The notes under the pieces were generated by a model. The model saw nothing but the letters and a program-made list of their open reading frames with translations. It searched no databases and was not told where the DNA came from. Below are positions 2,519 to 56,792 of a DNA stretch of 64,000 nt, in pieces (position 1 is the stretch's first letter; the number at the start of each line of letters is the position of its first letter). Position numbers and translations under genes: made by a program. The stretch is from a virus: positions 1-64,000 of the IMG/VR virus record IMGVR_UViG_3300007504_000005, one strand, 5' to 3'.

Positions 2519-2545
2519 CGGTGGGGAACCCGAACCGAGGATCCC

Positions 2546-2761
2546 ATGGCCCCTTCCCTGACCGACTCCGATCTCCAGACCTGTACGGATACCTGGTGGG
2601 CCCTCCAGGATCCCTGTGAGGACTCCGACTGCCAGAACAGTCGCTTCGGATGCGACTGCAAATCCAGCAGGCCGGTTGTTCTCTCCTTTGGATACGCGGA
2701 CGTCCACCAGGACGGCTCCGTCACCGTTTACGGGGGTGTCATCGCCAACGTCGGTGCGTGA
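2546..2761 (+). CDS. small cysteine-rich hypothetical protein
   Basis: A 71-residue protein starting at ATG 2546, with GAGG about 6 bases upstream. The N-terminal half holds five cysteines (TCTDTWW, DPCEDSDC and CDC), suggesting a bound metal or a disulphide-stabilised fold. The C-terminal half (RPVVLSFGYADVHQDGSVTVYG) looks like beta strands. I do not recognise the family. It lies 27 bases after the helicase gene and 56 bases before the exonuclease gene, in the same direction. The coding call rests on the ribosome-binding site, position and reasonable composition. Confidence 0.55.
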   Translation: MAPSLTDSDLQTCTDTWWALQDPCEDSDCQNSRFGCDCKSSRPVVLSFGYADVHQDGSVTVYGGVIANVGA

Positions 2762-2817
2762 ACTGTCCCGTTTGGGTAGCGGTAACGGTAGGAACGCCTG
2801 TTCAATGCAGGTGATGT

Positions 2818-31998: not shown

Positions 31999-32712
31999 AT
32001 GTCTACAGCAGCCACACCCTATGAGAGTCAGACCAAGAGAGACCGCAAGCGTCTCCTCAACAACCTTCCTGTGGGAACCCGCCGAGTCCGGATTCTCAAT
32101 GCACAGGGGAAGCAGCAGTACAAGCGGCCTGAGGACGTCGACGTCGATCGGGATATCATCCCTCTGAACAAGAACGGTGTCCCCATTGTGATGCGGAAGA
32201 AGCCGGGGGCTCCGGTCAAGACCCGCTCCCAACTCAATCCCCTGTCGTCCCAGATCGGTCAGGTCATGGACGCTCGGGACGAGTGGATCTCCACCAACGA
32301 TCTCCTGTCCCAGGCTATGGATGACGCCTCGGGAGATCCCTTCCTTGACCTTGTGCTGGTCAACATGATCGCGGAGGCCGTCAACATCGAGTTCGAGCGG
32401 GTGGAGCTCCAGCGCCATGGCCAGGGTTCCGATGCTGCGGATCTCTCGACCAAGCGTGCTCGTGTCCTCAAGGCGATCGCTGACCTGGTCCTCAACCGTC
32501 GGAAGATCGCGGACGGGGCTCTGATCGACCTCGACTCTCCGGTCTTCAAGGCGCTGTTCACTCTCCTGCTGGAGACCTTCCGTGAGGCCATGGCCACCGG
32601 AGGCTGTCGCTCCGAGCAGATCGAGCAGACCTTCACCCATATGGTGTCCTCCCTGGATGGTGACTCCTGGAAGGGTGAGGCGCGTGCCCGGATGAAGGAT
32701 GCCTTGAAGTGA
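31999..32712 (+). CDS. hypothetical protein preceding terminase, possible small terminase subunit
   Basis: A 237-residue helical protein with AGGAG before ATG 31999. It is coupled to the large terminase by a four-base overlap, the usual place for the small subunit. The N-terminal 70 residues are basic, and the middle has long helices (NDLLSQAMDDASGDP region) but no clear helix-turn-helix. It could be a DNA-recognition subunit or a neck protein. The assignment relies on position. Confidence 0.5.
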   Translation: MSTAATPYESQTKRDRKRLLNNLPVGTRRVRILNAQGKQQYKRPEDVDVDRDIIPLNKNGVPIVMRKKPGAPVKTRSQLNPLSSQIGQVMDARDEWISTNDLLSQAMDDASGDPFLDLVLVNMIAEAVNIEFERVELQRHGQGSDAADLSTKRARVLKAIADLVLNRRKIADGALIDLDSPVFKALFTLLLETFREAMATGGCRSEQIEQTFTHMVSSLDGDSWKGEARARMKDALK

Positions 32713-34652
32713 GCCTCGCTGACCTGGCTGCCGCGGTCGGTAGAAGGTCCTCCGATCAAGAGGTCACCAAGGTCGCGGATATCATCACCTTCGTTGAGTC
32801 CCCCTGGGGACTGGGGCTCCGCCTGTATCCTGTCCAGAGGGTCATCCTCAAGGCCCACTATGGGATCGCCCTGGATGACAATCCTCACAACTTCCCTCTC
32901 GATGTCCCCATCCCCAAGGACCACCCCGCCTATGACGAGGAGTTGGTCGACGTAGACGGGTTCTACAAGTTCCGCATCCCGATTACGGATTGGCGCCGGG
33001 AGAACGAGAAGTTCTTCACTGAAGCGGGATACCTGGCCTGGCTGTTCAAGCAGGGCCGCTGCAACATCGAGAAGGTGGTTCCGGGCCAGCAGCGCCGAGA
33101 GATGGTCCTCTCGATTGGACGCCGGTCGGGCAAAACCCTCATCACCTCTTGCATCGTCGCATACGAGACCTACAAGCTCCTGCTCAAGCCCAGCGCTCAG
33201 GAGTTCTACGGGGTCTCCCCCTCCAACATCATCCAGCTGATCTCTGTCGCCACGGACAAGGACCAGGCAGGTCTCCTGTACCAGGAAGCCTCCGGCCACT
33301 TCCAGAAGTGCAAGTTCTTCGCCGCCTATGCGGCCAACGCCACCCAGAGCTTCGCTACCTTCCAGACTCCTCATGACATCGACAGGTACGGCACCTACAA
33401 GGACAACAACAAGGCTCGGTTCTCCATCAAGGTCACCTTCAAGTCCTGTGTTGCGAAGGGCCTTCGGGGTGGGAACAATATCCTGGTCGCTCTTGATGAG
33501 GCGGCCCACTTCGGGGAGAAGGGACAGGCTTCGGCAGATGAGGTCTACCAGGCCGTGGAGCCCTCCACCCGAACCTTCTCCCCGAAGACCAAGAGGGACA
33601 AGACTCGCGTGGTCCGGGACCCGAAGACAGGGAAGCCGATGCCCAACGAGGGGCGGATCATCATGATCTCTTCCCCCCTCGGGAAACAGGGTCTCTTCTA
33701 CAAGTCCTATCGTGTGGGATTCGGAGACAACCTGGCGGCGCAGAACATGCTCTGTGTCCGAGCACCTACCTGGGAGGTCAATCCCACGGTCCCCGGAGAG
33801 ACTTTCGTCGGATCGTACCTCAAGGACCCGGCTGTCTTCGCAACAGAGTTCGGGGCTGAGTTCACTGATCGAACCCGGGGTTGGGTCGAGAACGCCAAGG
33901 ATCTGTTGGACTGTGTGGATCCGGATCTCCGCCCCCGCCGCCGCGCGCCGGCTCGAGTCCCCAACTTCATGGGAATCGATGTCGCGCTTGTCGGTGACTG
34001 GTGCTCGTTGGTAATCGGACACAACACCCCAGACAAGCGCGTCGCGGTGGATTTCTACGAGAGGATCCGCGCTGGAGAGGGGGACTACGTCGGGCTGGAT
34101 CGCTTGGAGTTCGAGGACGTCGCTGACTGGATCGCCTACTGGGCAAAGAGGTTCTACATCTACGAGGGGATCTTCGATCAGTGGGCCGGAATCCCCCTGG
34201 AACAAGCCCTGAAGCGCCGGGGGCTGAACCAGCTTCTCTCCGTGACGCACAACCGGAAGCTGTCCAGCCAGATGTACCAGAACCTCAAGAACATGATGCT
34301 GGATCGCCGGCTGGTCCTGTATGACTGGCCCCTCCCTCCCGAGGGCAAGGGACACAGCCCTCTGATCCAAGAGCTCCTGGAGCTCCAGGCAGAGAGGATC
34401 TCCAAGTACGTCATCAAGGTGTCCGCTCCTAACGAGGATGGGAAGCACGACGATATCTCTGATGCCCTCTCTCGCATGGTTTGGTCCGCAGTCAAGAACG
34501 GGGGTCGGGTCAATCGGGTGACTGGCGTATCTCGGAACACGAACCCCGGCTCGGGGGTTCGTTTCGGGAGGGCTCCTCGGATGGCTCGAAGAGGGGGCTC
34601 CCATGTATCCCGTCAGCCTCGGATGGCGAAGCTGGGGTACAGGAGGAAGTAA
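32709..34652 (+). CDS. terminase large subunit
   Basis: A 647-residue DNA-packaging motor. The ATPase has Walker A SIGRRSGKTL near 134-143, Walker B ILVALDEAAHF near 257-267 and coupling motif ISSPLGK near 320. The RNase H-like nuclease has FMGIDVALVGD (Asp near 423), FDQWAGIP and HDDISDALSRM near 580. A basic tail (RMARRGGS, then LGYRRK) could contact DNA or the portal. It cuts and pumps concatemeric DNA into proheads. Start is GTG 32709. Confidence 0.93.
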   Translation: MSLADLAAAVGRRSSDQEVTKVADIITFVESPWGLGLRLYPVQRVILKAHYGIALDDNPHNFPLDVPIPKDHPAYDEELVDVDGFYKFRIPITDWRRENEKFFTEAGYLAWLFKQGRCNIEKVVPGQQRREMVLSIGRRSGKTLITSCIVAYETYKLLLKPSAQEFYGVSPSNIIQLISVATDKDQAGLLYQEASGHFQKCKFFAAYAANATQSFATFQTPHDIDRYGTYKDNNKARFSIKVTFKSCVAKGLRGGNNILVALDEAAHFGEKGQASADEVYQAVEPSTRTFSPKTKRDKTRVVRDPKTGKPMPNEGRIIMISSPLGKQGLFYKSYRVGFGDNLAAQNMLCVRAPTWEVNPTVPGETFVGSYLKDPAVFATEFGAEFTDRTRGWVENAKDLLDCVDPDLRPRRRAPARVPNFMGIDVALVGDWCSLVIGHNTPDKRVAVDFYERIRAGEGDYVGLDRLEFEDVADWIAYWAKRFYIYEGIFDQWAGIPLEQALKRRGLNQLLSVTHNRKLSSQMYQNLKNMMLDRRLVLYDWPLPPEGKGHSPLIQELLELQAERISKYVIKVSAPNEDGKHDDISDALSRMVWSAVKNGGRVNRVTGVSRNTNPGSGVRFGRAPRMARRGGSHVSRQPRMAKLGYRRK

Positions 34653-35196: not shown

Positions 35197-35517
35197 GTGG
35201 AAAGGAAGGCCCTACAGGATCGGGATGCGCGCGTGGGTTCCCATGTGTTCACCGCTCTTCAAGAGATAGAGTCTGCCATCCGCATCTCTCGCGACCACAC
35301 CCAAACCCGACAAGCGCGGAAGGCGCACCGGGATCTTCTTCATATCCGGGACGGCCTGAAGAGAATCTCCTCCGCATCCCCCAACTGGTCCGATCCGGAC
35401 ACTATTCCTGAAGAGGAATGGTCTCGGAGGGCTCGGGAGAAAAGAGAGCAACGACGGAAAGAGCTCATGGAGAAGAAGCTGAAGCAGGCGACCCAGGCGG
35501 AGGCCTCTGATGAGTAA
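35197..35517 (+). CDS. small helical protein before the portal
   Basis: A 106-residue protein. GTG 35197 is preferred because GAGGG lies at 35187-35193; GTG 35170 would overlap the previous gene. The protein is helical and ends in a highly charged segment (RRAREKREQRRKELMEKK). It overlaps the portal start by eight bases. No function can be assigned; it could be a chaperone for the portal or a minor head protein. Confidence 0.55.
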   Translation: MERKALQDRDARVGSHVFTALQEIESAIRISRDHTQTRQARKAHRDLLHIRDGLKRISSASPNWSDPDTIPEEEWSRRAREKREQRRKELMEKKLKQATQAEASDE

Positions 35518-37210
35518 AGACAAACAGGAGGGAGTCCCTGTAGGGAAGGTGAGTAGCGGCGACGGGAAGAAGCGCGCCAAGACAGGGAAGCCTCGGAAGA
35601 TCATCGTCGGGAGCATGCGTTCTCGGTACGCAGCAGTCGGATCCATGGCCAACACGGTCCAGGGATACGGGGGCAACTTCTACAGTCCTGAGCTCTCCAC
35701 GGACTTCCTCGAGCTTCCCCAGAGCCTCCACGAGAAGTGGGCCTATTACCGGTTCTTCTATGAGAATGAGCCGTTCGTAGGGCAGGCGCTCAATCTTCAT
35801 GTTGAGCTCCCCATCTCCAAGATCCGGATTGGGATCCCCAAGGCCAAGAACCGAGAGATCGCTCTGGCGGCCACCCGGTTCTGCACCAAGTGGGCCCGTC
35901 GGGTTCGTCTCGTAGAGCGCCTCATGTCGATGGTCCACGAGAGGAATCTGATCGGAGAGGCGTTCGTCTGGTTCGAGGATGAGAACCCCGAGATGCCTCA
36001 GGAGGTTCGCCATGAAGCGCGGAGGACCCTGACTACAGAAGGGGAGGCTGTAGAGGAATGGGTCCTCCGTGAGGATGCCGACCAGCGCGCTTCCAAGTGG
36101 CTCCGGAAGAACTACAAGGGATGGACGGACGTCCGGTGTCTCCCTCCGGAGCAGATCCGCTTCGAGTCCTTCAACTTCACAAGCGAGATGCTGTTCGAGG
36201 TCATCCCGGATTCGAAGACCAAGCGCATCGTGGATCGCGCAAAGCAGGGAGATCCCCAGGCCCAGCGGGTCGTCAAGACGATGTCCGCCGATGTGGTCCG
36301 TGCCTGTGTAGAGGGGCGCAATGTCCCCCTGAACACCGACCCTGATGCTGGCTCCTTCATCTACTATCTGGCCAACAAGCGGTCGGACTACCAGGCGCGC
36401 GGGACTTCCATTCTCCAGCGCTGTATCCGTGCTCTTGTCTACCGGGACAAGCTCCGCCAAGCCCAGACCAGCATCGCCTCTCGCCATATGACCCCCATCC
36501 GGATTGTCTGGGGGGAAGACATGAGCGAGGGGGATGTCGAAGATCTGCGCGAACAGGTCGACATGGCGCTGATGGATCCGGACTACTCCATCATCACCAA
36601 CTTCCAGGTCAACTGGGAAGAGATGGGGGCGGACCAGCGTCTGCTGGATCTCAACGGAGAATACGACCTCACCGATCGGCAGCTGTACGCAGGACTCTCG
36701 GTTACCGAGGGTCTTCTCTCGGGGGAGTCCTCCTACTCTGGGGACCGGGCCAACCTCGAGGTCATCAACACTCGGTACATGTTGCTCCGAGAGCAACTCC
36801 AAGCCTTCGTTGAGGACTTCGTGTTCCGGCCGATGTGTGCTCGGATGGGGTTCATCGAGAAGGACGAAGATGGCGAGGATGTGGTGGTAGTTCCCTCCCT
36901 GACCTTCACTCGTCTGGCTCTCCGCGACAACCGCGACACCTTCGATGCTCTGTACAACCTGTACACCAAGGGCAGCTTGGACGTCGAGACCATCCTTGAG
37001 CTCCTGAACCTTGATCCTGTCCTGGTCCGCGAGCGGATCGAACGGGATCTCTGGACTGTCAACGATCCGACCTTCAACGAGGTCCTGCGGGGCATCTACG
37101 GAGATGCGGGTCGTGAGCTCGTTGGATCTACGAACATCCTTGAGGTCTTGGCCAAGGCCCTCAAGCTCGAGTACAACCCGCCCTCTGATGACGGCGACGG
37201 CCGGTTCTGA
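35510..37210 (+). CDS. portal protein
   Basis: A 566-residue portal protein forming the DNA entry ring of the prohead. The family pattern is visible in KWAYYRFFYENEPFVGQALN near 80, the central segment RGTSILQRCIRALVYRDKLR near 297, the long helix with HMTPIRIVWGEDM, and AGLSVTEGLLSGESSYSGDR near 390, which is characteristic of portals. The N-terminal 40 residues are basic, and the C-terminal is acidic. It is placed after terminase, as expected. Confidence 0.88.
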   Translation: MSKDKQEGVPVGKVSSGDGKKRAKTGKPRKIIVGSMRSRYAAVGSMANTVQGYGGNFYSPELSTDFLELPQSLHEKWAYYRFFYENEPFVGQALNLHVELPISKIRIGIPKAKNREIALAATRFCTKWARRVRLVERLMSMVHERNLIGEAFVWFEDENPEMPQEVRHEARRTLTTEGEAVEEWVLREDADQRASKWLRKNYKGWTDVRCLPPEQIRFESFNFTSEMLFEVIPDSKTKRIVDRAKQGDPQAQRVVKTMSADVVRACVEGRNVPLNTDPDAGSFIYYLANKRSDYQARGTSILQRCIRALVYRDKLRQAQTSIASRHMTPIRIVWGEDMSEGDVEDLREQVDMALMDPDYSIITNFQVNWEEMGADQRLLDLNGEYDLTDRQLYAGLSVTEGLLSGESSYSGDRANLEVINTRYMLLREQLQAFVEDFVFRPMCARMGFIEKDEDGEDVVVVPSLTFTRLALRDNRDTFDALYNLYTKGSLDVETILELLNLDPVLVRERIERDLWTVNDPTFNEVLRGIYGDAGRELVGSTNILEVLAKALKLEYNPPSDDGDGRF

Positions 37211-42160: not shown

Positions 42161-42196
42161 CAGGACGCAGATGGACAGGAGTCTCCATGCGTCCTG
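42161..42196 (+). promoter_or_regulatory. hairpin enclosing the start codon of gene 42187
   Basis: CAGGACGCA (42161-42169) pairs with TGCGTCCTG (42188-42196), and after a two-base bulge TGGA (42172-42175) pairs with TCCA (42184-42187). The loop (42176-42183) exposes AGGAG, the ribosome-binding site, while ATG 42187 is buried in the stem. This 13-pair structure would control initiation. The right arm extends into codons 2-4. Confidence 0.55.
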
Positions 42197-42825
42197 ACCC
42201 AAAGAAGGTTGCTGCTGCTTTCCTCGCGCAGAAGTCCGGTATGTCTCGGACGGCGGGTGAGGTTCGGTTCGTCAAGGATCGTGGGGGTGACAAGTCCGAG
42301 TGGGGTTGGAACACCCCCGGCCCGTCTGAGAGAGATATCTCGGACAACTTCGTGTTCAACGCGGAGAACCTGAAGCCGTTGGCTTTGGTGATGCGGTCGG
42401 TCCTGATGGGATTGGGCCACGCCACTTCGGCGCACACTCGGATGGTGAAGATCAAGAGCCGGAACGTTAGCCCTGATGGGGCTCTCGGAGGCAAGGGGTA
42501 CATTCAGAAGATCCCGGACCTGCGGCGCCAGCTCATGAACTGTGTCGAGGTTCTCTCTGCGATTTCCGATACCCTGTACGATGAGATCAAGGCCCCTCAC
42601 TGGGATCCCTCCGAGGACAAGATGACTCCACGGGACCGCGACGAGGTTCGTGAGATCGTAGAGGACGCTGAGGAGATCAAGGAAGATCCTGAGGCCTGGG
42701 CGGATGAGCAGGAAGAAGAGCTCGATGAGGAACACGACACCCTCGCTGTCCACAAGCAAGCAAGCCAGAAGGTGAGCTTGCACCGGGTGATCCGGAACTT
42801 CCAGAGGAGCACCGATGTCGGATAG
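42187..42825 (+). CDS. virion-region protein with PxPxxVA N-terminal motif
   Basis: A 212-residue protein starting MRPDPKKVAAAFLAQK, a motif also found at the N-termini of the 45220 and 48189 proteins. The middle is helical and the C-terminal third is strongly acidic (EEIKEDPEAWADEQEEELDE) with a short basic end. No enzymatic motif. The start codon is inside a hairpin. It overlaps the next gene by 11 bases. It may be an internal head protein, by analogy with acidic and N-terminally tagged internal proteins of other phages. Confidence 0.55.
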   Translation: MRPDPKKVAAAFLAQKSGMSRTAGEVRFVKDRGGDKSEWGWNTPGPSERDISDNFVFNAENLKPLALVMRSVLMGLGHATSAHTRMVKIKSRNVSPDGALGGKGYIQKIPDLRRQLMNCVEVLSAISDTLYDEIKAPHWDPSEDKMTPRDRDEVREIVEDAEEIKEDPEAWADEQEEELDEEHDTLAVHKQASQKVSLHRVIRNFQRSTDVG

Positions 42826-45223
42826 CACGATCCACCAGCTGGGCAATGCGGAGCTCCCCGCTGACCTGTTCACGGAGACCCTGGCGAACGGCTTTGGGCT
42901 CGGTGAGTACCCTGACATGCAATACGGAATGGGGTCTCAGTCAGCCGTTGTCCTGCAGGACGGCCCCACGACTGCACCTGCTGTTCCTGACGGTCTGGCG
43001 AAGGGGTCCGCAGAGGATCTCGATCTCCGTTCTCTGATCGCCGAGACCGTCCCCGATCTCGATTGGCTCGACGCCAGCCTCCTGGAGCAGGATCCCGCGC
43101 GCCTTCCGAAGAACCCAACGGACGTGATCCCGGAGCTCGTTGACGCTTGGAGCTCCGACGGCCCTTCTCTCACAGCACAGACTCGAGACCTTTCCCGCGT
43201 TCGGTACGAGGAATCTCTCAAGGAGGGCTCCGGGACTTCCCAGAAGGCTTCCGTCAAGCAGATGCGAGAAGTGGCTTCCAAGGCGATGCGTCGGTCTGTG
43301 ATGGGTCACGATATCGCGACCATCATCCGCGAGGCTCAGGAGTGTATGGGGGAAGAGGCGGCCCGGTTGGAGCCTCTCCTCAAGATGGTCCTCGCTGAGC
43401 ATGGCCTGGCGGGGAATGTGTTCATTCGAGCTGCTGCCTATCCCAAGTACGGGTCGGGCCAGTGGGGAGCCCACCTCCGGAGATATGCACGGGACGCCCG
43501 GTATGTGGTGGTCTCTGAGCGGGATCTCAAGAACGCAACCTGGATCCAGAACGGTCGGTGCTCTCTCACCGGCAAGTTCGCCGTCACGAAGGTCCCCTGG
43601 GAAGAGGCAGTCACCCACTACAAGTCTCGGCTGGCTGGCCGCTCTCCTTCTCGCACTGGTCTGCGTTCTGCGTTCCTCCAGAGGGAGGGTCTCTCCAAGA
43701 AGGCCAACAGCTGGCTTCCACACCACACGGCTGCTGCTGATCGGGTCTCCACTGAGGAGGCGTGGAAGGCGTTCGCGTCGTACAAGCCCGAGGTTCCTCA
43801 GCTTCGGGATCCGAAGGCCGTGCGGCTGGCTTCGGACAAGCGGGCGGCAGAGGAGAAGATCAACTCCCTCGTCGCTCAGGGAGTTCTCCCTGAGGTGGAC
43901 CGGGATCGTATCCTGGCCTCTGGCGCTTCTCCCTCTGACCAGTTGAAGGCGGCAGCTCAGATCGCTGCTCTCCCCAAGGTCTCTGCGTACCAGGGAGTGC
44001 AGAACAAGGCCAACGAGGTCAATCGAGATCTGTATCTGGCGCGGCTCGAGATGAGCCACCTGGCTGCTCAGGAGCGTGTCTCCCGCCTCCGTGTCGAGGC
44101 TTCGCGCCGCTCTCAGGCAGCCATTCAGGACCTGGTGGATCGAAAGATCCTCAAGGCCTCCGAAGCGAAGGCGATGCTGGAGTCCGGCAAGTCGGTCCAC
44201 GCAATCCTCCGCGCAGCAGCCAAGATCTCCCTCATCCGACAGGGTGAGTTCAGCGGCCAGAACAACAACGCAGCTGAGGCGGGAGTCCAGAGGGTTGTCT
44301 CCGGAGCAGAGAAGAACCAGGCTCGTATCCGCACTGCCCAGACCAACATCGACCGTCGTGTCCGGAGGGAAGCAGCGGAGAGTACCCTCGAGGCCCGCGC
44401 CGCCCAGGATCGCGTCACCCGGCTCAAGGCAGGGTATCGGGAGGTCCGCCGGGCGATCGAGGCTGGCGCCCGTGGTCAGGTCCTCAAGAACATCATCGCC
44501 AAGACGTTCCATGGGAACGATGCCGAGATTGGCCGTCGTATGCTCGCTGGCCTCCTGGAGCGCACAGGAGCCCTGAAGGAGCCCACCAAGGCCAACTATG
44601 AAGGGAAGTCCTTCAAGATCCATCAGGCAGAGGCTCGGAAGGCTCGGTTCTCTGGGACCGAAGCCCGGAAGGTCCTGTCTTGGCTCGGCCGGACCCTCTC
44701 TGAGGGCTTCGCAGGGAAGCCCTTGGATGAGCTCATCCAGCGTCGGTTCACTGCTCGGACACGGGAGGCTCTCAAGAGCGAGATCTTCGTAGCTCGGACC
44801 TCCCACGAGGGTGGTGCAGGGTTCGTCTATGTGGACGCCTCTGCGTATGCAACCCTCAAGGGGGTCAAGGGGTGCGAGACCGGGGCCCTCAAGCACCGGG
44901 CGAATCAGATCCCCTCCGTCCTGGAGATGAGCCGGTGCGCTTCTTGCTCCCTGGTCTCGACTCGGGAGAACGGCGAGCGGGTTTGCTCCCTGTACAACAA
45001 GGTCCTGCTCGCCGACGCTCGGGGTCCCGAGATGGACCGCATCCGTTCGGCCAACGTCCAGGTAGCCAACATGAGCCGCGCGGAGCAGACCCAGTCTCTG
45101 TTCGCCGGTGTCTACGATCCAGCGGAGTTCGATCTCCAGAACACCAATCTGGAGGGGATCTCTCCCGGGATGCCTGAGACGGACAAGTTGGCTGAGATCT
45201 TCTTCGAGACGCGACTGCAGTGA
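42815..45223 (+). CDS. large virion-associated protein
   Basis: An 802-residue protein starting at ATG 42815 with GAGGAG upstream. The N-terminal 120 residues are acidic. A globular region of about 180-280 follows (AAAYPKYGSGQWGAHLRRYA). A long helical region rich in Ala/Arg/Glu spans about 320-560. Near the C-terminus there are paired cysteines (SRCASCSLV and ERVCSLYNK) preceded by KGCETGALKHRANQI, probably a metal-binding module. It is coupled to the 2H/topoisomerase fusion gene by a four-base overlap. It is probably an internal or tail protein; function unknown. Confidence 0.55.
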   Translation: MSDSTIHQLGNAELPADLFTETLANGFGLGEYPDMQYGMGSQSAVVLQDGPTTAPAVPDGLAKGSAEDLDLRSLIAETVPDLDWLDASLLEQDPARLPKNPTDVIPELVDAWSSDGPSLTAQTRDLSRVRYEESLKEGSGTSQKASVKQMREVASKAMRRSVMGHDIATIIREAQECMGEEAARLEPLLKMVLAEHGLAGNVFIRAAAYPKYGSGQWGAHLRRYARDARYVVVSERDLKNATWIQNGRCSLTGKFAVTKVPWEEAVTHYKSRLAGRSPSRTGLRSAFLQREGLSKKANSWLPHHTAAADRVSTEEAWKAFASYKPEVPQLRDPKAVRLASDKRAAEEKINSLVAQGVLPEVDRDRILASGASPSDQLKAAAQIAALPKVSAYQGVQNKANEVNRDLYLARLEMSHLAAQERVSRLRVEASRRSQAAIQDLVDRKILKASEAKAMLESGKSVHAILRAAAKISLIRQGEFSGQNNNAAEAGVQRVVSGAEKNQARIRTAQTNIDRRVRREAAESTLEARAAQDRVTRLKAGYREVRRAIEAGARGQVLKNIIAKTFHGNDAEIGRRMLAGLLERTGALKEPTKANYEGKSFKIHQAEARKARFSGTEARKVLSWLGRTLSEGFAGKPLDELIQRRFTARTREALKSEIFVARTSHEGGAGFVYVDASAYATLKGVKGCETGALKHRANQIPSVLEMSRCASCSLVSTRENGERVCSLYNKVLLADARGPEMDRIRSANVQVANMSRAEQTQSLFAGVYDPAEFDLQNTNLEGISPGMPETDKLAEIFFETRLQ

Positions 45224-48189
45224 AGCCGAACCCAGCCCGCGTGGCTGTGCGTTGGGCCGTATCCCAGCAGCAAGCAGCCCCGAAGCCCATGGCGCCCGTT
45301 GGGAAGCCAGGGGTTCATGTGGGTCTGTTCTTCCCCGTCCCCGAGGATATCGCTGATCAGTTCCCGGAGAAGGAGCAGGACAAGTCCAACCCCCACGTGA
45401 CCTTCCTGTATGTGGGAGAGGTGGAAACCTCTCGGGAACAGGAGCTCGTAGAACTGGTCTCCGACTTCTTCCTGGAGCTGCCGGCTATCCGGGCCTCTCT
45501 GGGCCCTATGGACTACTTCCTGACGCCAACCCAAAAGGTGGTGTTCAGCTCGGTCCGTTTCTCCCATGACATCTCGAGTATCCGAGACCAGATCCGGGAA
45601 GCTCTCCTGAAAGCGGGCTTCCGTGTCAAAGATGCCTCCCCTATCCGATGGCATCCCCACGTAACCATCGCGTATGTCAGCCCGGAGGAGAACCTCAAGC
45701 TGGCGCCGCCCAAGGGGTCCTGGGATATCGAGACTGTGCGGGTCTGGGGCTTCTCCAAGGAGCACACGATCCTGTTCGGAGGTGCGGGCCGCCGTCCTAC
45801 CTTCAAGAGCATGTCCCATCGGGTCGCTGCCAAGTACAAGTCCAAGAAGGATGTCAAGGGTCCCGACGGCAAGACCCACACGATCTACGAGTACTCGGAC
45901 CAGCACAACGCGAACAAGGACAAGGACAAATCCAAGAGGGTCGAGAAGCTCCGCCAGAGCCTCTCGAAGCTCCGGAGCAAGTACCGTAAAGGGCTGTCAG
46001 CAGAGGACGCTCGAGAGCGTCTCACGGCCCTCGCCGTTGCTCTGGTAGACTGCACCTACGAGCGCGTCGGGAATGACGGCTCCGCCAAGGAAGGACACTT
46101 CGGTGTCACCGGCTGGCAGAAGAAGCATGTCACCATCTCTGGGAATACAGCCACCTTCAAGTACACCGGGAAGTCGGGGATCGACCACGAGAAAAAGGTC
46201 ACCAACTCCAAGGTGGTCGGGGCTCTCAAGAAGGCACTCGAAGGGAAGAAGCCCGGGGACAAGATCCTTTGCGATGGCGATGAGTGTGTGATCTCAGCCA
46301 CCCAGGTCAATCAGTACCTGTCGGAGTTCGGAGTCACCGCCAAGGATATCCGAGGCCTCCACGCCAACGAGGAGATGAAGAAGAGTCTCTCGGCCATCCG
46401 CAAGAAGGGACCCAAGCTTCCCTCCGACAAGAAGGAGCGGGAGAAACTCCTCAAGGATGAGTTCAAGCAGGCCCTCGAGTCCGCAGCCGAGGCAGTCGGC
46501 CACACCACCTCCATTCTGCGCTCCAGCTATCTGGTTCCGGGTCTGGAGGACAAGTTCATGCAGGACGGAACGGTGATCAACAAGCTGAACAAGGCTGGCC
46601 GTACAAAGACGGCTGCCTTTGACATCCTGCGGCACTGCCCCCACTGTCTGGGGATTGTGTCTGACCTGGCCAAGTTCTGGGATACCTGTACGGACTGTGG
46701 CTACGAGGTCAATCTGGGAGGCTTCTATAATGGGCGTGGTGATGCTCCTCACGGAGGAAAGCCTGTCGAGAGGATGGCCCGCGAAGACGCGTGGCAGCCG
46801 ATTCCTGAGACGGATCCTCGCCTGATCAAGCAGGCCCTGGATACCTTCTCCCAGTACTCCCGAGGTCCAATGATGTGGATCGGGGAGGAAACACGCCTGG
46901 CCACACTTGAAGAGCTCGCCCAGTACCTGGAACGTGTCGGAGCTCCCATCCCTGCCGTTCCCCATACCAAGACTGCTGCGGGGAACCAAGAGGTCATCGA
47001 GGCTCCTCACAACTTCCATCGAGTCAAGGTAGAGCCCCCACGAGCCAAGCGGAAGGTGTACCCGTTCGAGGGCTACATCGACTTCCAGGGCATCCAGATC
47101 GATGTAGAGAACAAGAAGGGGTCCTCTCGCTCCGGGGCGGATCCCGACGGGAACAAGTGGTCTATCAAGATGCACGCCCACTACGGGGAGATCCGTGGGA
47201 CCGAGGGCACCGACGGGGATAAGCTTGACGTCTACGTGGGGGAGAACCACGATTCCTCGGTGGTGGTCGTAGTTCACCAACAGGACCCCAGCACTGGCAA
47301 GTTCGACGAGGACAAGGTCCTGTTGGGATTCGACTCTCCTGAGGAGGCCATCGGTCTCTACAAGAAGCAGTACGACAAGCCAGGCTTCTTCAAGGAGGGC
47401 GAGTTCCTGACCATGCCCATTGGCCAGTTCTGGCGCTGGGTCAACGATCGGAAGAACAAGGGGAAGAAGGTGAAGGCTCGGTACTGGAGACCTCTCTCCG
47501 ATGCTGTCGGGCTCAAGACTGCCAAGAAGGGCTCCTGGCAGGAGAGGTACTGGAAGACTGCCATTATCCACCTCTGGAACGCAACAGACGGAGAGGGTGA
47601 TCTCCGGGGGAATCCCGGTCTTCAGTCGAGCCTGACTCTGTACGAGCGCGCGCTGATACAGGAGCTCTTGATTCATGAGCAGCCCATTCTCCGGACGGGC
47701 GAGCACTACCACGTCCGGGACCACCGACTGGATCCCGAGGCGGTTGGGGAGCTCATCGGCGCAGGATATCTCGAGGAACTGGAGGACGGTTCGGTTGTCG
47801 TTTCTCCGATGTACCACGCCAAGGCACGCCTGTATGGTGGGGGTCTGACTCTGAAGGAGCAGATCATGGCCTACGAGCTCGGGTACGACCACACCAAGTC
47901 TGCTGCGCGTCACGGTCCTCCGACTCAGGTTGGTCTCTCCTCTGTTCTGAAGCGGAAAGGTCTGGAGCCGGTCGATATCTGGTTCGGACAGGTTCGTCCC
48001 CACCGCCGGCCGACGGTGACCAAGCTCGAGGCTCTGCGCACACGCGCCGGAGATATCGTCTACTTTGCCGGGATGGATGGCAAGGGCGAGCCTGTCGTTG
48101 GCCGCACTGAGCGGGAAGCAAAGGAGCTCGCCAACGAGATCGTTAAGCTCCGCCTTCGCCACCAAACCCCAACGATCCACAGCACCTGA
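45220..48189 (+). CDS. multidomain protein: 2H phosphoesterase, topoisomerase IB, zinc ribbon, pyrophosphatase-like
   Basis: A 989-residue fusion. (1) N-terminal motif MKPNPARVAV. (2) 2H phosphoesterase, about 33-190, with NPHVTFLYV (His 59, Thr 61) and HPHVTIAYV (His 147, Thr 149). (3) Topoisomerase IB, about 195-460: ERVGND (Arg 282), KKHVTI (Lys 302), AKDIRGLHA (Arg 378), GHTTS (His 428) and SSYLVPG (Tyr 437), a complete catalytic set. (4) Zinc ribbon with Cys 473, 476, 490, 493. (5) Inorganic pyrophosphatase-like domain, about 608-755, with GTDGDKLDVYVG and FDEDKVLLGF. (6) An unassigned C-terminal region. This fits the polyvalent proteins that phages are thought to inject. Start GTG 45220. 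Confidence 0.85.
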   Translation: MKPNPARVAVRWAVSQQQAAPKPMAPVGKPGVHVGLFFPVPEDIADQFPEKEQDKSNPHVTFLYVGEVETSREQELVELVSDFFLELPAIRASLGPMDYFLTPTQKVVFSSVRFSHDISSIRDQIREALLKAGFRVKDASPIRWHPHVTIAYVSPEENLKLAPPKGSWDIETVRVWGFSKEHTILFGGAGRRPTFKSMSHRVAAKYKSKKDVKGPDGKTHTIYEYSDQHNANKDKDKSKRVEKLRQSLSKLRSKYRKGLSAEDARERLTALAVALVDCTYERVGNDGSAKEGHFGVTGWQKKHVTISGNTATFKYTGKSGIDHEKKVTNSKVVGALKKALEGKKPGDKILCDGDECVISATQVNQYLSEFGVTAKDIRGLHANEEMKKSLSAIRKKGPKLPSDKKEREKLLKDEFKQALESAAEAVGHTTSILRSSYLVPGLEDKFMQDGTVINKLNKAGRTKTAAFDILRHCPHCLGIVSDLAKFWDTCTDCGYEVNLGGFYNGRGDAPHGGKPVERMAREDAWQPIPETDPRLIKQALDTFSQYSRGPMMWIGEETRLATLEELAQYLERVGAPIPAVPHTKTAAGNQEVIEAPHNFHRVKVEPPRAKRKVYPFEGYIDFQGIQIDVENKKGSSRSGADPDGNKWSIKMHAHYGEIRGTEGTDGDKLDVYVGENHDSSVVVVVHQQDPSTGKFDEDKVLLGFDSPEEAIGLYKKQYDKPGFFKEGEFLTMPIGQFWRWVNDRKNKGKKVKARYWRPLSDAVGLKTAKKGSWQERYWKTAIIHLWNATDGEGDLRGNPGLQSSLTLYERALIQELLIHEQPILRTGEHYHVRDHRLDPEAVGELIGAGYLEELEDGSVVVSPMYHAKARLYGGGLTLKEQIMAYELGYDHTKSAARHGPPTQVGLSSVLKRKGLEPVDIWFGQVRPHRRPTVTKLEALRTRAGDIVYFAGMDGKGEPVVGRTEREAKELANEIVKLRLRHQTPTIHST

Positions 48190-50042
48190 TGATTGTCTCC
48201 CCCGAGCGTGTGGCCCGTCTGTTCTTGGCGACCAAGACACGTTCGGAGAAGGAAGAGGCTGAGGCGGAGCGGCTGATCAGGCCCTCTCCGAAGAAGAAGC
48301 CTCCTCGTCGGGATCTGGAACGAGGTCGGGTCAACGATAGCGAGGACGACCCGGACGAGAAGCAGGACAAGAAGGACCGGTCCCACAACTACAAGGACTC
48401 AAGCTTCGACCTGGTAGCTTGGTGGTTCAAGAACGCTCGGGACACCAGTACGGTCAGGATGCGCAAGGTGGATACCGGGCGCGTCGTCGACGTCTCTCCG
48501 GACACTGTCTCTGAGAACCCAGGCGCGTACGAGGAAGTCACTGGGGACGATGCAACAGATACGGACGACGCTGATCCTGATGCAACCGAGGACACCCCTT
48601 CCGACACTCCCAGTTCTGATCCAAAAGGGGATGCCCCTCCCAAGCCTGACCCCTCCTCTCTCCCAGGGCCTACGGACCTCCCGGACAAGGACGCGTACGA
48701 GAAGTTCCGCTCCGATGCCATGGCTCGCTACACAGCCTTGGGGATAGCTGAAGACGAGGTTACTGAGATCTTGGACATGGTCTCGAACCAAGGGGACGCT
48801 GAGGAATCAGTGGTCCTGTTGGATGAGCTCGCGGATACGGCTGCTGCGGAAAAGGCGGACCGAGAGAAGGCCGAGAAGGCCGAGGCCGAAGCTCTCCAGA
48901 AGGAGCAGACCGAGGCTGAAGAGGCTCGGAAGAAGGAGGAGCGGGACAAGCTCACCAAGGATCTCACTCAGGGTCTGCCGAGGGACCAGGAGTCTGCTCT
49001 TGAGAGGTCCCTCGGGAAGCTCTCTCCCGAGCAGTTCCAGGCGTTCTCGGAAACTCTGCAGAACCGGGTGTCTGACCTCAACGCGAGTCGTCCGGACATC
49101 AAAGAGTTCATGGAGGACCTCTCCGCGCGGAAGAAGGATCTCCGGGAAAGCACTGACCCGGCCCGGTTGGGAGAAGCCCTCGCGGCCGTGACCTACTTCA
49201 ACACGGTGGTAGACAACCCTGCTGTGGATCTGGATAACCCTCTTCCGGAGAAGGGAGGGGACGAGCTGGAAGGGGATGCTCTGACTGAGGCCCGGAAGAA
49301 GTCGGTCGAGAGGTCCTCACGTGCAGTAGAGAAGTATCGTGCGATGTCCTCCGAAGATCGGAAACGTCACCTCAAGCGGCTGGACCAAGAGCTCCTGGAT
49401 CTCCCAGACGGATCGCCCCGCCGAGTAGAGCTTGAGGCGATTGAGAAGGGGTTGGGAATCGCTGCTGTCCTCGAAGAGGGAGACTCGGTTCGAGGAGCCG
49501 GCTCTGCAGTAGCCGGAGTCATCCGTGCTGCCGATACAGCTGGGGATCTTGACAAGATCCTATCTCTCTCTGTGTTGGAGAGCACCGATGCCCTGGGTTC
49601 GGATGACCAGCATATCATCCGTGGTGTCTACAACAACCTGGGCTCTATGGATTTCGTAGATGTGGTCGCCAAGGACCACCCCGCCCGTCCCCTCGCTGAA
49701 CTCCTTGCGGACCCGGCGGGGAGCAAGAACATGTCCCGGGCGGACAGGGCGTTCATGAAAGAACTCCTGGTGGATGCCCTAGTCGCGGACACTGCCTTCC
49801 TGGATCCCCTCGTTTCAGGGGAGAGCGAAGGCCTCACGGTCAAGGAACACCGCAAGAAGTCTCTGAAGAAGCGGAAGAAGTTCACCCCATCGACCAAGAT
49901 CCCAACGGACGTCAAGGGCGCTCGTGGTTGGTTCGAAGAGTTCCTCGAGAACCTCTCCGCACCGTTCCGAAAGAAGTCCTCCTCCCACATTCCTTGGGAT
50001 TTCACCCCCTGGAACCCCGAAACCATCACCTTCCAGACCTAA
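48189..50042 (+). CDS. large acidic virion-region protein
   Basis: A 617-residue protein starting at ATG 48189, overlapping the previous stop. It begins MIVSPERVARLFLATK, a motif shared with two upstream genes. Residues about 105-170 are low-complexity acidic and Pro/Thr-rich. A long coiled-coil-like region follows at about 215-290. Around 395-415 is LDLPDGSPRRVELEAI, related to the LPxGSxER motif of other genes. The C-terminal is basic and ends in an aromatic-rich segment. No enzyme domain. It is probably a particle-associated protein. Confidence 0.55.
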   Translation: MIVSPERVARLFLATKTRSEKEEAEAERLIRPSPKKKPPRRDLERGRVNDSEDDPDEKQDKKDRSHNYKDSSFDLVAWWFKNARDTSTVRMRKVDTGRVVDVSPDTVSENPGAYEEVTGDDATDTDDADPDATEDTPSDTPSSDPKGDAPPKPDPSSLPGPTDLPDKDAYEKFRSDAMARYTALGIAEDEVTEILDMVSNQGDAEESVVLLDELADTAAAEKADREKAEKAEAEALQKEQTEAEEARKKEERDKLTKDLTQGLPRDQESALERSLGKLSPEQFQAFSETLQNRVSDLNASRPDIKEFMEDLSARKKDLRESTDPARLGEALAAVTYFNTVVDNPAVDLDNPLPEKGGDELEGDALTEARKKSVERSSRAVEKYRAMSSEDRKRHLKRLDQELLDLPDGSPRRVELEAIEKGLGIAAVLEEGDSVRGAGSAVAGVIRAADTAGDLDKILSLSVLESTDALGSDDQHIIRGVYNNLGSMDFVDVVAKDHPARPLAELLADPAGSKNMSRADRAFMKELLVDALVADTAFLDPLVSGESEGLTVKEHRKKSLKKRKKFTPSTKIPTDVKGARGWFEEFLENLSAPFRKKSSSHIPWDFTPWNPETITFQT

Positions 50043-52405: not shown

Positions 52406-53863
52406 ATGGCTCACTCCAAGAAAGCATATGCGATGCTCACCCATCCCCGGATCACCGGGCGTGGTTGGGGCAAAATGCGTCGGAAGGCGACGTCCGGGGC
52501 TTCCTCGGCCAACCTGTCGGATCAGGCTCGTCTGATCCTCGGCGGGCCTCTGGATCCCGACAAGTACCTCTTCTCGCACTGCACCATCGTGGCGTCGGTG
52601 GATATCGATCCCGTCCCGGGTGTCCGTATGGGCACTGTCAAGGTAGGGAACTCGACCATTGACCGTCGCTATGGCGACTACTACATCAGGCCCACCAGTT
52701 CCCAGTATGTGAACAACAACGGGGACTCTTGGTCTCGCCCAGTGCTGCTGGCCAGCTATCCGACCTTCGTCGGGGGCCACAACTTCCTCGAGCATGTCCA
52801 GGTTGCCTCCAAGTCCAAGGGCCGGATCATCGATGCGGTCGCTCGGGATGTTGGGGACTCGGTCTACATCGACATCCTGGTCGCGACCAATCGGAAGCAT
52901 GCTTCCCTGATCTCGGACATCAAGTCCGGACGTCTCAACACCCTCTCGATGGGCTGTACCACCGACTTCACGATCTGCACCAAGTGCGGACACGTGGCGG
53001 TGGACGAGACCGACCTCTGCGACCACGTCAAGGTTGCCAAGCTCGACACCTTCCTCGACGAGCGGAACGAGCGTCGGATCATCGCCGAGCTCTGCGGCCA
53101 CATCTCTCACAACGAGACGGGGGGTGTCAACTTCATCGAAGCCAGCTGGGTTGGGATCCCGGCTTTCACTGGCGCGGTGATGCGAAACATCCTGCAGATC
53201 GCCAACCTCGATGAGCGCGAGTCCGAGATTCGCCGGATCCTCGCCAGTCAAGGTCCCTCGTGGTCGGAGGCTGCCATGATGAAGGCAGCCAAGTTCGACC
53301 CCCAAAGGTTCCTGGTTGGACAAGGGGACGAGGACAACGAGGAACAAGAGCCAGAGCCAACCCCGGAGCCCGAGACCAAGGACACTCTCCAGAAGCTCGA
53401 AGATGACCTGGTTGACCGAGTCAAGGACCGCGTGCAGGACCGCCTCCGCTCCGAGATGCGTTCCGATGAGGGTGACAAGACCCTTGGGGACTCCGACTGG
53501 CCCAATGACACTCTGAACAGGGAAGCCCGGACCCGGGTAGCCTCCAACACCCGCCGTCGCTACAAGATCGCGGTGGAAACGGCTCTCCGGCATGCGACCT
53601 CTCAGATCGCTCTCGTCGACTCGGTCGCTCGGATCAACATCGCCCACGATATCCGGATCCCCGTCTCCATCTATCGCGCCGCTCTCGAGGCTGGCTCCTC
53701 TTCTCGCTACGCTGGAACTCAGCAGTACGTGAATCGGATGCAGCACCTCCTGGGTCGCCGCATCAGTCCCGCCGAATTCCGGGTTGTTGTCCGGGTCGGC
53801 TCCCTGCTCTCCCAGTGGGAGCAATTCAACAACCCGCAGTCATCCTCCCCGAGGAGTTCCTAA
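52406..53863 (+). CDS. probable prohead maturation protease
   Basis: A 485-residue protein just before the scaffold-like and capsid genes. The N-terminal ~300 residues include FVGGHNFLEHVQVAS (candidate catalytic His), YIDILVATNRKHASLISDI and GRLNTLSMGC (candidate Ser near 180), matching the His/Ser pattern of prohead proteases. Cysteines (CTKCGHV and LCDHV) suggest a zinc site. The C-terminus, about 315-485, is acidic then helical and could be a scaffold-like extension. It would cleave scaffold and other packaged proteins. ATG 52406 follows the homing endonuclease stop by one base. Confidence 0.6.
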   Translation: MAHSKKAYAMLTHPRITGRGWGKMRRKATSGASSANLSDQARLILGGPLDPDKYLFSHCTIVASVDIDPVPGVRMGTVKVGNSTIDRRYGDYYIRPTSSQYVNNNGDSWSRPVLLASYPTFVGGHNFLEHVQVASKSKGRIIDAVARDVGDSVYIDILVATNRKHASLISDIKSGRLNTLSMGCTTDFTICTKCGHVAVDETDLCDHVKVAKLDTFLDERNERRIIAELCGHISHNETGGVNFIEASWVGIPAFTGAVMRNILQIANLDERESEIRRILASQGPSWSEAAMMKAAKFDPQRFLVGQGDEDNEEQEPEPTPEPETKDTLQKLEDDLVDRVKDRVQDRLRSEMRSDEGDKTLGDSDWPNDTLNREARTRVASNTRRRYKIAVETALRHATSQIALVDSVARINIAHDIRIPVSIYRAALEAGSSSRYAGTQQYVNRMQHLLGRRISPAEFRVVVRVGSLLSQWEQFNNPQSSSPRSS

Positions 53864-55035
53864 TGGCACGTCAGCGCCTCTCATGGATCGAGGAAGCTCG
53901 TCGAGCTTCCGCCCACCCCGCAACCCCCGACGAGGGTCCGGCCTCTCCCGCAGGCAACGGTGAGGACCCCACCGCCGACGCCTACGAGAACGGCGACACC
54001 TCCTCGTGGGCCTCTGACCCGCACCCGCACCCCGGCCCCTACCCGGACAGCGCCCACCCCGCCACGCCCGACGAGGGCTCGGACCACCCGGCCGGCAAGT
54101 CCGCCTCCGACGAGATCTCTCCCGAGACGAACCGTCGCGCCTCCCAGTGCGTCCGCATCGCGACCGCCATGCTCGGCGAGCCCGACAGCCCCGCCAAGGT
54201 CGCCGCCATCGAGGCGCAGGCCATCGAGCTGATGCACCTCCCCGACGCTTCCATCACCGCCAGCCTCAAGCGGCTCGGTCTGGACGGCGACGGTGAGGAC
54301 GACACCGACAAGGAAGCCTCTTCCAAGATCTCCAAGAACACCGACCGGATCGCCCGGCTCGAGCGCGTTCTGATCCGCCTCGCCGACGACGACCTGGACG
54401 AGGAGGCCGCCACCAAGAAGGCTTCGGCTGAGCTGGAGACCCGCGTGGCGCGGCTCGAGCGCATCCTCGTCAAGCTGGCTGAGGAAGACGAGGATGACGA
54501 CGGCGACCGGATCGCCCGGCTCGAGCGCGTTCTGATCCGCCTCGCCGAGGAGGAGGAGGAAGAGGACCCCGCCCCGAAGGCTGCCGCCACGGACAAGAAG
54601 GCCGACGACCTGCTCCTCGAGGAGATGCTCCGCGAAGAGGGGATGCTGGACAAGAAGGCCGACGACCTGCTCCTCGAGGAGATGCTCCGCGAAGAGGGGA
54701 TGCTGGACGAGCCCTGCGGCATGGGTGAGCCCTCCATGGACGAGCCCTCCGGCGACACCGAGCTCGAGATCGATCTCGCTGAGGAGGATCCCATGACCAT
54801 CCTCGCCGACGACGACCTGGACGAGGAGGCCGCCACCGTGCTCGCCTCCCTGTACAGCGAGACCCCCGGCGCGAACCGCGAGGCCGCCACCGAGCCCGAG
54901 CGCCGGCCGCAGCCCAAGAAGGCGAGCACCGGTGCCTCCAGCCTCGGCAACGTCCGGACGGCGTCCAACGACTCCGACGTGGCTCAGCTCGAGAACCTGT
55001 GGAAGTCGGCTCCCGACGTCTCCGCGCTCATCTGA
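53863..55035 (+). CDS. acidic repeat-rich scaffold-like protein
   Basis: A 390-residue protein whose ATG overlaps the protease stop, with GAGGAG upstream. It is very acidic and helical, with repeated segments: DRIARLERVLIRLA occurs at about 161 and 216, ADDDLDEEAAT at about 175 and 316, and a 19-residue unit DKKADDLLLEEMLREEGML is directly duplicated. Codons are extremely G/C-ending. Position between protease and capsid genes and coiled-coil composition fit the internal scaffold of the prohead. It is followed by a strong terminator. Confidence 0.6.
   Translation: MARQRLSWIEEARRASAHPATPDEGPASPAGNGEDPTADAYENGDTSSWASDPHPHPGPYPDSAHPATPDEGSDHPAGKSASDEISPETNRRASQCVRIATAMLGEPDSPAKVAAIEAQAIELMHLPDASITASLKRLGLDGDGEDDTDKEASSKISKNTDRIARLERVLIRLADDDLDEEAATKKASAELETRVARLERILVKLAEEDEDDDGDRIARLERVLIRLAEEEEEEDPAPKAAATDKKADDLLLEEMLREEGMLDKKADDLLLEEMLREEGMLDEPCGMGEPSMDEPSGDTELEIDLAEEDPMTILADDDLDEEAATVLASLYSETPGANREAATEPERRPQPKKASTGASSLGNVRTASNDSDVAQLENLWKSAPDVSALI
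54592..54705 (+). repeat. perfect 57-base tandem duplication in the scaffold-like gene
   Basis: Positions 54592-54648 and 54649-54705 are identical 57-base units encoding the same 19 residues (DKKADDLLLEEMLREEGML). The identity includes silent positions, so the duplication is recent or kept uniform by recombination. Other exact repeats lie within the same gene. Confidence 0.8.
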
Positions 55036-55919: not shown

Positions 55920-56792
55920 ATGCCCGCAACCAACGCAGTCAAGGCTCGCCTCATCAGCGAGTTCATCGGCACCCAGGCTGGCCGTCACAAGCTCGCCGCG
56001 TCGATGACCCAGCCCCTCCGGCTCCGCCGGGACTACATGGCCGTCGGCCGGAAGACCTTCCTCGTGGAAGAGCTCCCGGATGGCGCGCTGCCCATCTACG
56101 ACAAGGATCCGGACGTCACCGCGTACCTGGTCGGTGAGGAAGGCGAGAACATCGTCGCCGTCACCAAGCCCCGGCGCGTGTCCTTCCCGCTGTTCGAGAT
56201 CGCCTCGAACCCGGAGATCCCGCTGACGCAGATCAAGGAGCGCCGCTTCGACCTCATCGAGCGCGCCCAGGACCTGGCCCGTGCCCAGATCCAGGCCGCC
56301 GAGGACGAGCGCGTCTTCGCGATCATGGACTCGATCGCCACCAACGGCTTCGACTCCATCGCCGGTGGTGAGAACCCCGACATCCCCGTCGTCGCCCCGA
56401 TCTCCGGCGCTGTCCTCGCGGACGCCTTCGCCGCGGTCGAGCAGCACGACCTCCGGGTGGCCCGGGTGTTCATGAACGCCGTCGACTACGCGGACATCCG
56501 CAAGTTCGGCCGGGACATCCTCGACGTCGAGACCCAGCGCGACCTCATCCAGACCGGCCTCATGGGTCGCCTCTGGGGTGCCAGCGTCATCGTCAGCCGC
56601 CTCGTGCCGGCCGGATTCGTCTACATCTGCTGCGAGCCCGAGAACTTCGGTCGGATTCCGGTCCGTACCGAGCTCACGGTCCTCAGCGCCGACGACCCGC
56701 GCGCCCGCACCATTGGCTTCAGCGTTTTCGAAAACTTGGGCATCGGGGCCTTCAACCCCAAGGGCCTCTGCCGCCTGACGATCGCACGGTAG
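55920..56792 (+). CDS. major capsid protein (HK97-fold)
   Basis: A 290-residue protein with GAGGAGGG before ATG 55920. The N-terminus is helical and the remainder has the layout of small HK97-fold capsid proteins: a long central helix (RFDLIERAQDLARAQI), then beta strands, and a C-terminal end GFSVFENLGIGAFNPKGLCR typical of this family's last strands. It has extreme codon bias and is followed by a stable hairpin. It would self-assemble on the scaffold and be processed by the prohead protease. Confidence 0.8.
   Translation: MPATNAVKARLISEFIGTQAGRHKLAASMTQPLRLRRDYMAVGRKTFLVEELPDGALPIYDKDPDVTAYLVGEEGENIVAVTKPRRVSFPLFEIASNPEIPLTQIKERRFDLIERAQDLARAQIQAAEDERVFAIMDSIATNGFDSIAGGENPDIPVVAPISGAVLADAFAAVEQHDLRVARVFMNAVDYADIRKFGRDILDVETQRDLIQTGLMGRLWGASVIVSRLVPAGFVYICCEPENFGRIPVRTELTVLSADDPRARTIGFSVFENLGIGAFNPKGLCRLTIAR

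Follow-up and report, generated by a model that had tools for sequence, protein, structure and literature searches.

The 64,000-nucleotide stretch of viral DNA analysed here (the window; positions 1 to 64,000 of IMG/VR record IMGVR_UViG_3300007504_000005) carries at 45220..48189 a gene for a protein of 989 residues, in which a 2H phosphoesterase, a topoisomerase IB, a zinc module, an InPase domain and further C-terminal modules are joined. With modest confidence, we read this gene as encoding a capsid-cargo polyprotein that would be loaded into the phage head, cut into separate enzymes and injected. More tentatively, a widespread clade of huge phages may make modular head polyproteins in which a portable tag ([RK]VAxR[FYW]L) and a site ([KR]xA[S/A], cut after the alanine) would let enzyme cassettes plug in, load together, be cut apart in maturation and be injected, with topoisomerase IB as a near-constant module and RNA-end-repair enzymes as common companions. 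The gene, its modules and motifs and the head genes described below all lie on the plus strand.

Modules of the 989-residue protein

The reading frame starts with GTG and is open throughout 45220-48189. Its start overlaps the 3' end of an upstream open reading frame (ORF) at 42815-45223, and its final base, position 48189, is also the first base of the next ATG-initiated ORF. A preliminary description of the window had proposed a single 989-residue frame in a virion region, and this holds, as the frame is uninterrupted and genes for terminase, portal, head maturation protease and capsid protein surround it.

Three Pfam families match the protein above their curated cut-offs: PF13563 (2_5_RNA_ligase2) at residues 50-158 (E 9.5e-13), PF01028 (Topoisom_I) at residues 231-432 (E 6.5e-27) and PF18823 (InPase) at residues 617-741 (E 5.8e-41; 140 bits against a cut-off of 26.8). 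The 2H domain spans residues ~30-190 (45307..45789), as supported by PF13563 and by relatives, and both of its predicted His-x-Thr motifs are present, in HVTF 59-62 and HVTI 147-150. Judged by profile score, it is related to TIGR02258 (RNA 2',3'-cyclic phosphodiesterase; E 1e-8, 35.3 bits, under the curated cut-off of 65.7) and lies outside that equivalog. The four-cysteine zinc ribbon of the preliminary description is found as C473PHC476 / C490TDC493 (46636..46698), a CxxC-CxxC module conserved in one relative (G003) at 59% identity over 78 residues, with CPHC and CGDC kept. The InPase-like segment, likewise predicted, occupies 47068..47442; the same domain occurs on phage head proteins, and in a sequence search of the PDB a phage protein labelled portal (9b41) shares an InPase-type segment (5e-16). 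Relatives carry the topoisomerase module at 62% identity and the InPase module at 81-82%, and together with the three above-threshold Pfam matches this indicates that the modules are not chance similarities.

Among 22 head regions compared, all four modules stand in one ORF only in the window and in G001, which has the identical sequence; in G003 the 2H domain sits on a separate ORF upstream. The protein is of the polyvalent type, as had been suggested, with Pfam placing 2H, InPase and topoisomerase in one polypeptide. A PADLOC search of the protein and its two neighbours returned no defence-family match at E 0.01.

The topoisomerase domain covers residues 207-460 (45838..46599). Sequence matches in the PDB include Deinococcus topoisomerase IB (2f4q, 5e-13), DNA topoisomerase I (6z01, 3e-11) and a poxvirus topoisomerase (2h7f, 2e-8), and the top 22 Foldseek matches of the predicted model are all topoisomerase I/IB chains (best E 8e-13). 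A topoisomerase IB profile match had been expected near residues 195-460, which is where PF01028 falls. Four of the five catalytic residues proposed earlier stand, namely R282, R378, H428 and Y437; the fifth, K302, does not. It is neither invariant nor nearly so among 15 aligned sequences and is ruled out as the catalytic lysine, which is K318 instead: in a residue-by-residue alignment K318 (in YTGK) pairs with K167 of the poxvirus enzyme, which we take to be the catalytic lysine of that enzyme. R282, K318, R378, H428 and Y437 are invariant in 15/15 aligned sequences. By these alignments the domain is a complete topoisomerase IB with its catalytic set intact.

The predicted model of the full protein has a mean pLDDT of 54.7, with 530 of 989 residues below 50. 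Its confident parts are the topoisomerase and some C-terminal stretches, and the 2H part is of low confidence; the topoisomerase alone was treated as confident, and nothing about the C-terminal modules was taken from the full-length fold. All six junction sites described below fall in stretches with pLDDT <50, as does over half of the protein, and their low values add little to the polyprotein case.

Two motifs at the module boundaries

Two short motifs recur where the modules of the protein meet. Class II, [RK][VI]A..[FYW], occurs as RVAVRW at residues 7-12 (45238..45255), where it may act as a capsid-targeting tag, and as RVAAKY at residues 201-206 (45820..45837), at the junction of 2H and topoisomerase, where it includes a [KR]xA[AS] site. 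Class I, [KR]xA[S/A], occurs as KTAA at residues 463-466 (46606..46617), at the topoisomerase/zinc junction where the zinc module starts; as KTAA at residues 584-587 (46969..46980), at the zinc/InPase junction where the InPase module starts; and as KSAA at residues 893-896 (47896..47907), between two C-terminal stretches of higher model confidence. The two KTAA sites are putative cleavage sites. A variant, KTAK, follows InPase at residues 766-769 (47515..47526).

We counted both motifs in cargo ORFs, meaning mechanically called plus-strand ORFs of at least 120 amino acids (not annotated genes) upstream of the protease and, where a portal was found, after it. In a gapped-motif search of 30 cargo proteins, which counted unlike sequence contexts only, [RK][VI]A..[FYW] ranked first, with 28 independent contexts against 2.3 expected; R/K, V/I and F/Y/W had been merged after the motif was noticed by eye, and the hold-out set is the cleaner test. 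Across 124 cargo ORFs the motif occurs 97 times forward, 8 times reversed and 6.7 times shuffled, compared with 14/9, 5/4 and 4/1 forward/reversed in the rest-of-genome controls. Of its 49 independent contexts, 22 carry Arg at position 5 and 18 carry Leu at position 7; nine lie at ORF N-termini and six at C-termini, where 2.7 each would be expected. In LR745208, a 485-kb phage, the loose form is weak outside the head region (14 forward, 9 reversed, 10 shuffled), and the strict form is found 6 times against 0 in the whole record, one of the six being a 2H protein.

The hold-out set was drawn from 82 loci. Loci sharing >85% identity with the discovery set or with one another were removed, as were ORFs <300 amino acids, which left 43 ORFs from the same phage clade, thus new sequences and not a new lineage. 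Class II occurs there 62 times forward and 5 times reversed (shuffled mean 4.3, max 8). The 25 residues upstream of the topoisomerase hold 30 hits for the 43 ORFs against 3.0 expected, counting hits in that interval and not distinct ORFs, and the motif may have been inherited there along with the topoisomerase. Since 6 of 12 topoisomerase ORFs shorter than 400 amino acids have RVAARYK/Q at residue 11-12, the class II motif seems to be retained upon gene fusion.

For class I, the same gapped-motif search of scaffold-like ORFs gave [KR][KR]AS as the winner. Forward, reversed and shuffled counts of [KR].AS are 86/4/8.6 in scaffold-like ORFs, 54/7/9.6 in protease ORFs and 153/69/60.5 in cargo, and 83/72/73, 38/33/39 and 22/19/20 in the controls, taken from the rest of three records. 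The form [KR][TS]A[AS] occurs 56 times forward and 14 reversed in cargo, with 21/21, 11/8 and 11/2 in the controls. KLAAS is found in the capsid protein of 21 of the 22 head regions, ~residue 24 from the likely start. Because the motif is enriched in scaffold-like and protease ORFs and is present near the capsid protein N-terminus, [KR]xA[S/A] could be a site of the maturation protease. Herpes-type assemblins likewise cut after Ala and before Ser. Class II is absent from scaffold-like ORFs and is seen twice in protease ORFs, which argues that tag and cut site are different things.

The joint motif is rare inside the topoisomerase, 2H and InPase domains (1 in 6,823 residues) and occurs 85 times in the 29,449 residues outside them; the hold-out has 2 in 10,732 residues of topoisomerase and 103 in 37,272 outside. 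In G003 extra sequence lies between the zinc and InPase modules. There, KTAAFDI and RTAASNQ correspond to KTAAFDI and KTAAGNQ of the 989-residue protein, and the BLAST alignment of the zinc module begins five residues before KTAAFDI and that of InPase exactly at RTAASNQ. Since these alignments begin at or near KTAA and RTAA, what is shuffled appears to be the segment from one site to the next. Together, the motifs at the junctions would fit a polyprotein better than a single enzyme with several functions.

Relatives, proposed mechanism and rival readings

The topoisomerase segment is present in 22 of 28 contigs related through the capsid protein (in one, its end alone, at the contig edge) and the 2H segment in 12; by Pfam profile, topoisomerase IB is found in 18 of 20 chosen records. 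It lies upstream of the capsid gene in 20 of the 22 head regions, which were mostly chosen for its presence, and the counts are not prevalence. In 15 of the 17 regions having a portal ORF the topoisomerase lies between portal and capsid gene, while five regions do not reach the portal, and 13 of the 20 have a portal ORF before it and a protease ORF after it. Two regions (G016, G002) have portal, protease and capsid and no topoisomerase there. A reverse scan with a topoisomerase alignment gave 144 relatives, of which the best 80 loci were kept and 31 contigs hand-picked from these; 28 of the 31 have a capsid match, near full-length in 27, and in 20 the topoisomerase is at most 14 kb from it, as counted by hand from coordinates. 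With the topoisomerase segment as sole query, a separate scan matched its own contig only, and among 50,697 named phage records that segment matches 6 and the 2H segment 1. A second, weaker and distant topoisomerase IB match lies outside the head module in two relatives (G003:C1:202198-202842 and G010:C1:2905-3552).

The partners of the topoisomerase vary among 2H, CCA-adding enzyme, HAD (HAD_SAK), PAP2, InPase and GNAT. Within the 22 head regions, 2H and topoisomerase share an ORF in the window, G013, G018, G019 and G025. A CCA-adding enzyme occurs in 12 of 20 records, near the cargo in 11 of them, and shares one open frame with 2H in 7 of the 11 2H-bearing records common to both searches, two of these 7 (G021, G022) looking like near-duplicates. 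One relative (L127, in G014) encodes at 89-4741 a cargo protein of 1550 residues with a CCA-adding enzyme, a HAD_SAK RNA-repair domain and a weak, below-cut-off tRNA-ligase CPD match; the reading we offer is an RNA-repair kit within one cargo gene. Because 2H shares frames with CCA-adding enzymes, and because of this 1550-residue protein, the evidence points to RNA/tRNA end repair as the role of the 2H domain; action on cyclic-nucleotide signals is possible and not favoured.

We infer packaging, cleavage, injection and each enzymatic role from the domains, residues, gene place and motif statistics observed here. In the proposed pathway, class II motifs of the [RK]VAxR[FYW]L type at the N-terminus and before the topoisomerase would serve as capsid-targeting tags through which the precursor is loaded into the prohead. 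Class I sites would then be cut after the alanine by the head maturation protease, whose gene lies 4 kb downstream, so that the 2H, topoisomerase, zinc, InPase and C-terminal parts would become individual proteins within the head and pass into the host along with the DNA. As an enzyme that needs no cofactor, topoisomerase IB could relieve supercoils during entry of the long genome and its first transcription. The 2H protein might heal 2',3'-cyclic phosphate RNA ends left by host nucleases, joined in this by the CCA-adding and HAD enzymes that relatives carry, and/or open cyclic-nucleotide signals, and InPase might clear pyrophosphate or hydrolyse nucleotide.

Several results weigh against this pathway. 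The top motif of protease ORFs is DDxGG, with the [KR]xAS forms next. Not all controls are flat, as [KR][TS]A[AS] counts 11 forward and 2 reversed in the rest of G001; in the p218 family [KR].AS counts 0 forward and 16 reversed, and in the hold-out plain [KR].AS counts 71 forward and 37 reversed (shuffle mean 42, max 63). The reversed control, too, is low inside domains (3 against 26). [KR]xA[AS] is short, and KDAS at residue 137 falls within the 2H domain; the site at residue 766 reads KTAK, which does not fit the motif; and the neighbouring ORF at 48189 has a class II motif and no class I site. Class II also turns up outside cargo: an RVARVFM-type conserved stretch inside the capsid protein, which we take as part of the fold, matches the pattern (22 ORFs, 19 forward hits). 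Among the 97 hits in cargo, moreover, is KIAxDFA, an element repeated in a family of tape-measure-like genes. The structure model is weak outside the topoisomerase. G009 and G011 are without a recognised protease ORF by ORF call; the topoisomerase and the capsid gene lie far apart in 8 of the 31 contigs, and 3 have no capsid match. Finally, of the 14 cleavages mapped in phage SPN3US, 13 take off N-terminal propeptides, according to the part of PMC10052503 consulted.

Three other explanations have to be weighed. The protein might be an uncleaved polyvalent protein, injected with the DNA as one multi-enzyme polypeptide, its junction motifs being capsid- or scaffold-binding tags for multivalent loading. 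Phage P1 packages DarB (~250 kDa) by means of an N-terminal signal, of which 30 residues suffice for a reporter (PMC9024508, as far as covered), and class II behaves as a tag would, with 97 hits in cargo and 0 in scaffold-like ORFs. The class I sites are, however, common to scaffold-like ORFs, protease ORFs and the capsid N-terminus and stand at module starts, and we hold this explanation to be somewhat unlikely. A related possibility is that class II is itself the protease site, cut after R-V-A and before A/S-R-F, with no separate targeting tag. Both classes share [KR]xA, and 17 of the 49 independent contexts of class II have A or S at position 4, against a background of 16%. Yet class II is missing from scaffold-like ORFs and almost missing from protease ORFs, and it favours Arg at position 5 and Leu at position 7, a demand that class I does not make; we think the proposal unlikely.

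It is also conceivable that the protein is no virion cargo at all and is an ordinary late or replication-associated enzyme, in the head operon by chance, with the motifs being linkers or recombination scars. The 8 contigs with a topoisomerase far from the capsid gene and the second, distant topoisomerase IB elsewhere in G003 and G010 are in keeping with this. Against it stand the conserved place in the head module, the tagged N-termini, the enrichment of the motifs in head genes, where most controls are flat, and the occurrence of PF18823-type domains on phage portal and minor head proteins, and we regard this explanation as quite improbable.

If the capsid-cargo polyprotein reading is right, a large and mostly uncultured clade (528 capsid relatives in one viral-contig scan) would carry a readable code for the contents of its heads, and tagged proteins elsewhere in a genome, such as the six strict matches in LR745208, would be predictable as virion cargo. 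Topoisomerase and RNA-repair enzymes would be in the host ahead of phage gene expression, and tag plus cut site would make up a system for protein delivery by phage heads.

Known systems and the surrounding head genes

The internal proteins of T4 are small single proteins with a short N-terminal capsid-targeting sequence, matured by protease and injected. A short N-terminal signal, maturation by protease and injection would be common to them and to the 989-residue protein, which differs in being large and multidomain. P1 DarB is likewise a large protein, and it and other Dar head cargo have an N-terminal targeting sequence of >9 and <30 residues (PMC9024508, in part), to which the proposed tag would be comparable. 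DarB has no class II match near its N-terminus and a single internal one at 1462, and was rejected as sharing the tag. The P1 capsid protein is cut at E120/S121, a specificity unlike that proposed here. In SPN3US, the prohead protease cuts head and ejection proteins at a short A-X-E motif with Ser preferred at P1'; no cleavage reported in the consulted part of PMC10052503 separates enzymes, whereas the cuts proposed in the 989-residue protein would.

Polyvalent proteins of phages and conjugative elements (Iyer et al. 2017, PMC5512222, in part) are multidomain, as is the 989-residue protein; 2H and InPase are among their described domains, 2H is fused to portal/MuF, and injection with DNA has been proposed. 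In the covered part of that article the word topoisomerase appears once, in a reference title, whereas the 989-residue protein has a topoisomerase IB; processing is ascribed there to metallopeptidase domains, and junction motifs or cutting by a head protease were not found. Topoisomerase IB is known from the jumbo phages Motura, NCTB, RSL1, Lu11 and PaBG, where it is grouped with recombination and topology functions (PMC7824862, in part), and Xanthomonas phage PhiXhv-15 also has one. The Deinococcus, poxvirus and jumbo-phage enzymes belong to the same catalytic family; that of the window is fused to 2H and InPase with junction motifs.

Bacillus phage G and the cultured Tunturiibacter phage Tunturi_5 were rejected as sharing class II, with none in 13 and 8 translated head-region genes, respectively; gp23 of phage G is a spliced gene that was read as one piece, which makes its translation unreliable. 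The capsid protein of phage G does not have the class I motif. Tunturi_5 has class I 7 times forward and 1 reversed in gp332 and 11 forward and 6 reversed in gp328, and KLAASL in its capsid protein. The consulted portion of a 2026 jumbo-phage review (PMC13282480) has no mention of polyprotein or prohead, and among the papers listed, covered at the level of titles and abstract openings and with subscription papers mostly outside the coverage, no description was found of topoisomerase IB in a head polyprotein or of either motif.

The head module of the window includes the terminase large subunit (32709..34652; phrog_2, 5e-24) and the portal protein (35510..37210; phrog_16240, 6e-27). Two neighbouring ORFs have a class II motif at residue 7, KVAAAFL in 42187..42825 and RVARLFL in 48189..50042, and parts of the latter are fused downstream of the topoisomerase in several relatives. 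The head maturation protease follows at 52406..53863 (phrog_18299, 6e-13; top match phrog_2774, of unknown function, 3e-20). Next come a putative scaffold-like protein at 53815..55035, which has 10 [KR]xA[SA] sites and no family match and is so named from its place and composition, and the major capsid protein at 55920..56792 (phrog_2522, 2.5e-49), with KLAAS from residue 24. Beyond the window, G001:C1:91942-93801 encodes a 619-residue ORF in which KTAS and RVAIRF follow a Cys/His-rich segment; it is another candidate of this virus for tagged cargo.

The source record of the window has 87,172 bases, and the 126-kb contig G001 has the same gene at 100% identity. Since the capsid protein resembles those of LR745208 (81% identity), Tunturi_5 (309 kb; 48%) and Bacillus phage G (39%), the window is very probably a piece of a huge-phage genome. 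The viral-contig scan with the capsid protein gave the 528 relatives mentioned above, of which the best 80 were kept. A scan of genome contigs matched 2 metagenome-assembled contigs, and these alone give no firm host.

Other features of the head modules were seen. In the window, a GIY-YIG endonuclease-like ORF with NUMOD3 motifs (51571-52404) separates the cargo block from the head protease, and a C39-like peptidase domain is found at 30729-31379 (PF13529, 1.9e-6). A small protein of 159-212 residues precedes the head protease in many relatives (51095-51574 in the window), with an internal RVAxAFVKxSLY or KVALYWAxRD. Portal matches come in two parts within one frame of 1100-1172 residues in G012, G019, G021 and G022, and protease ORFs of 894-1371 residues in G010, G015, G019, G021 and G023 have an unmatched stretch amid matched parts; possibly these are inteins in head genes.

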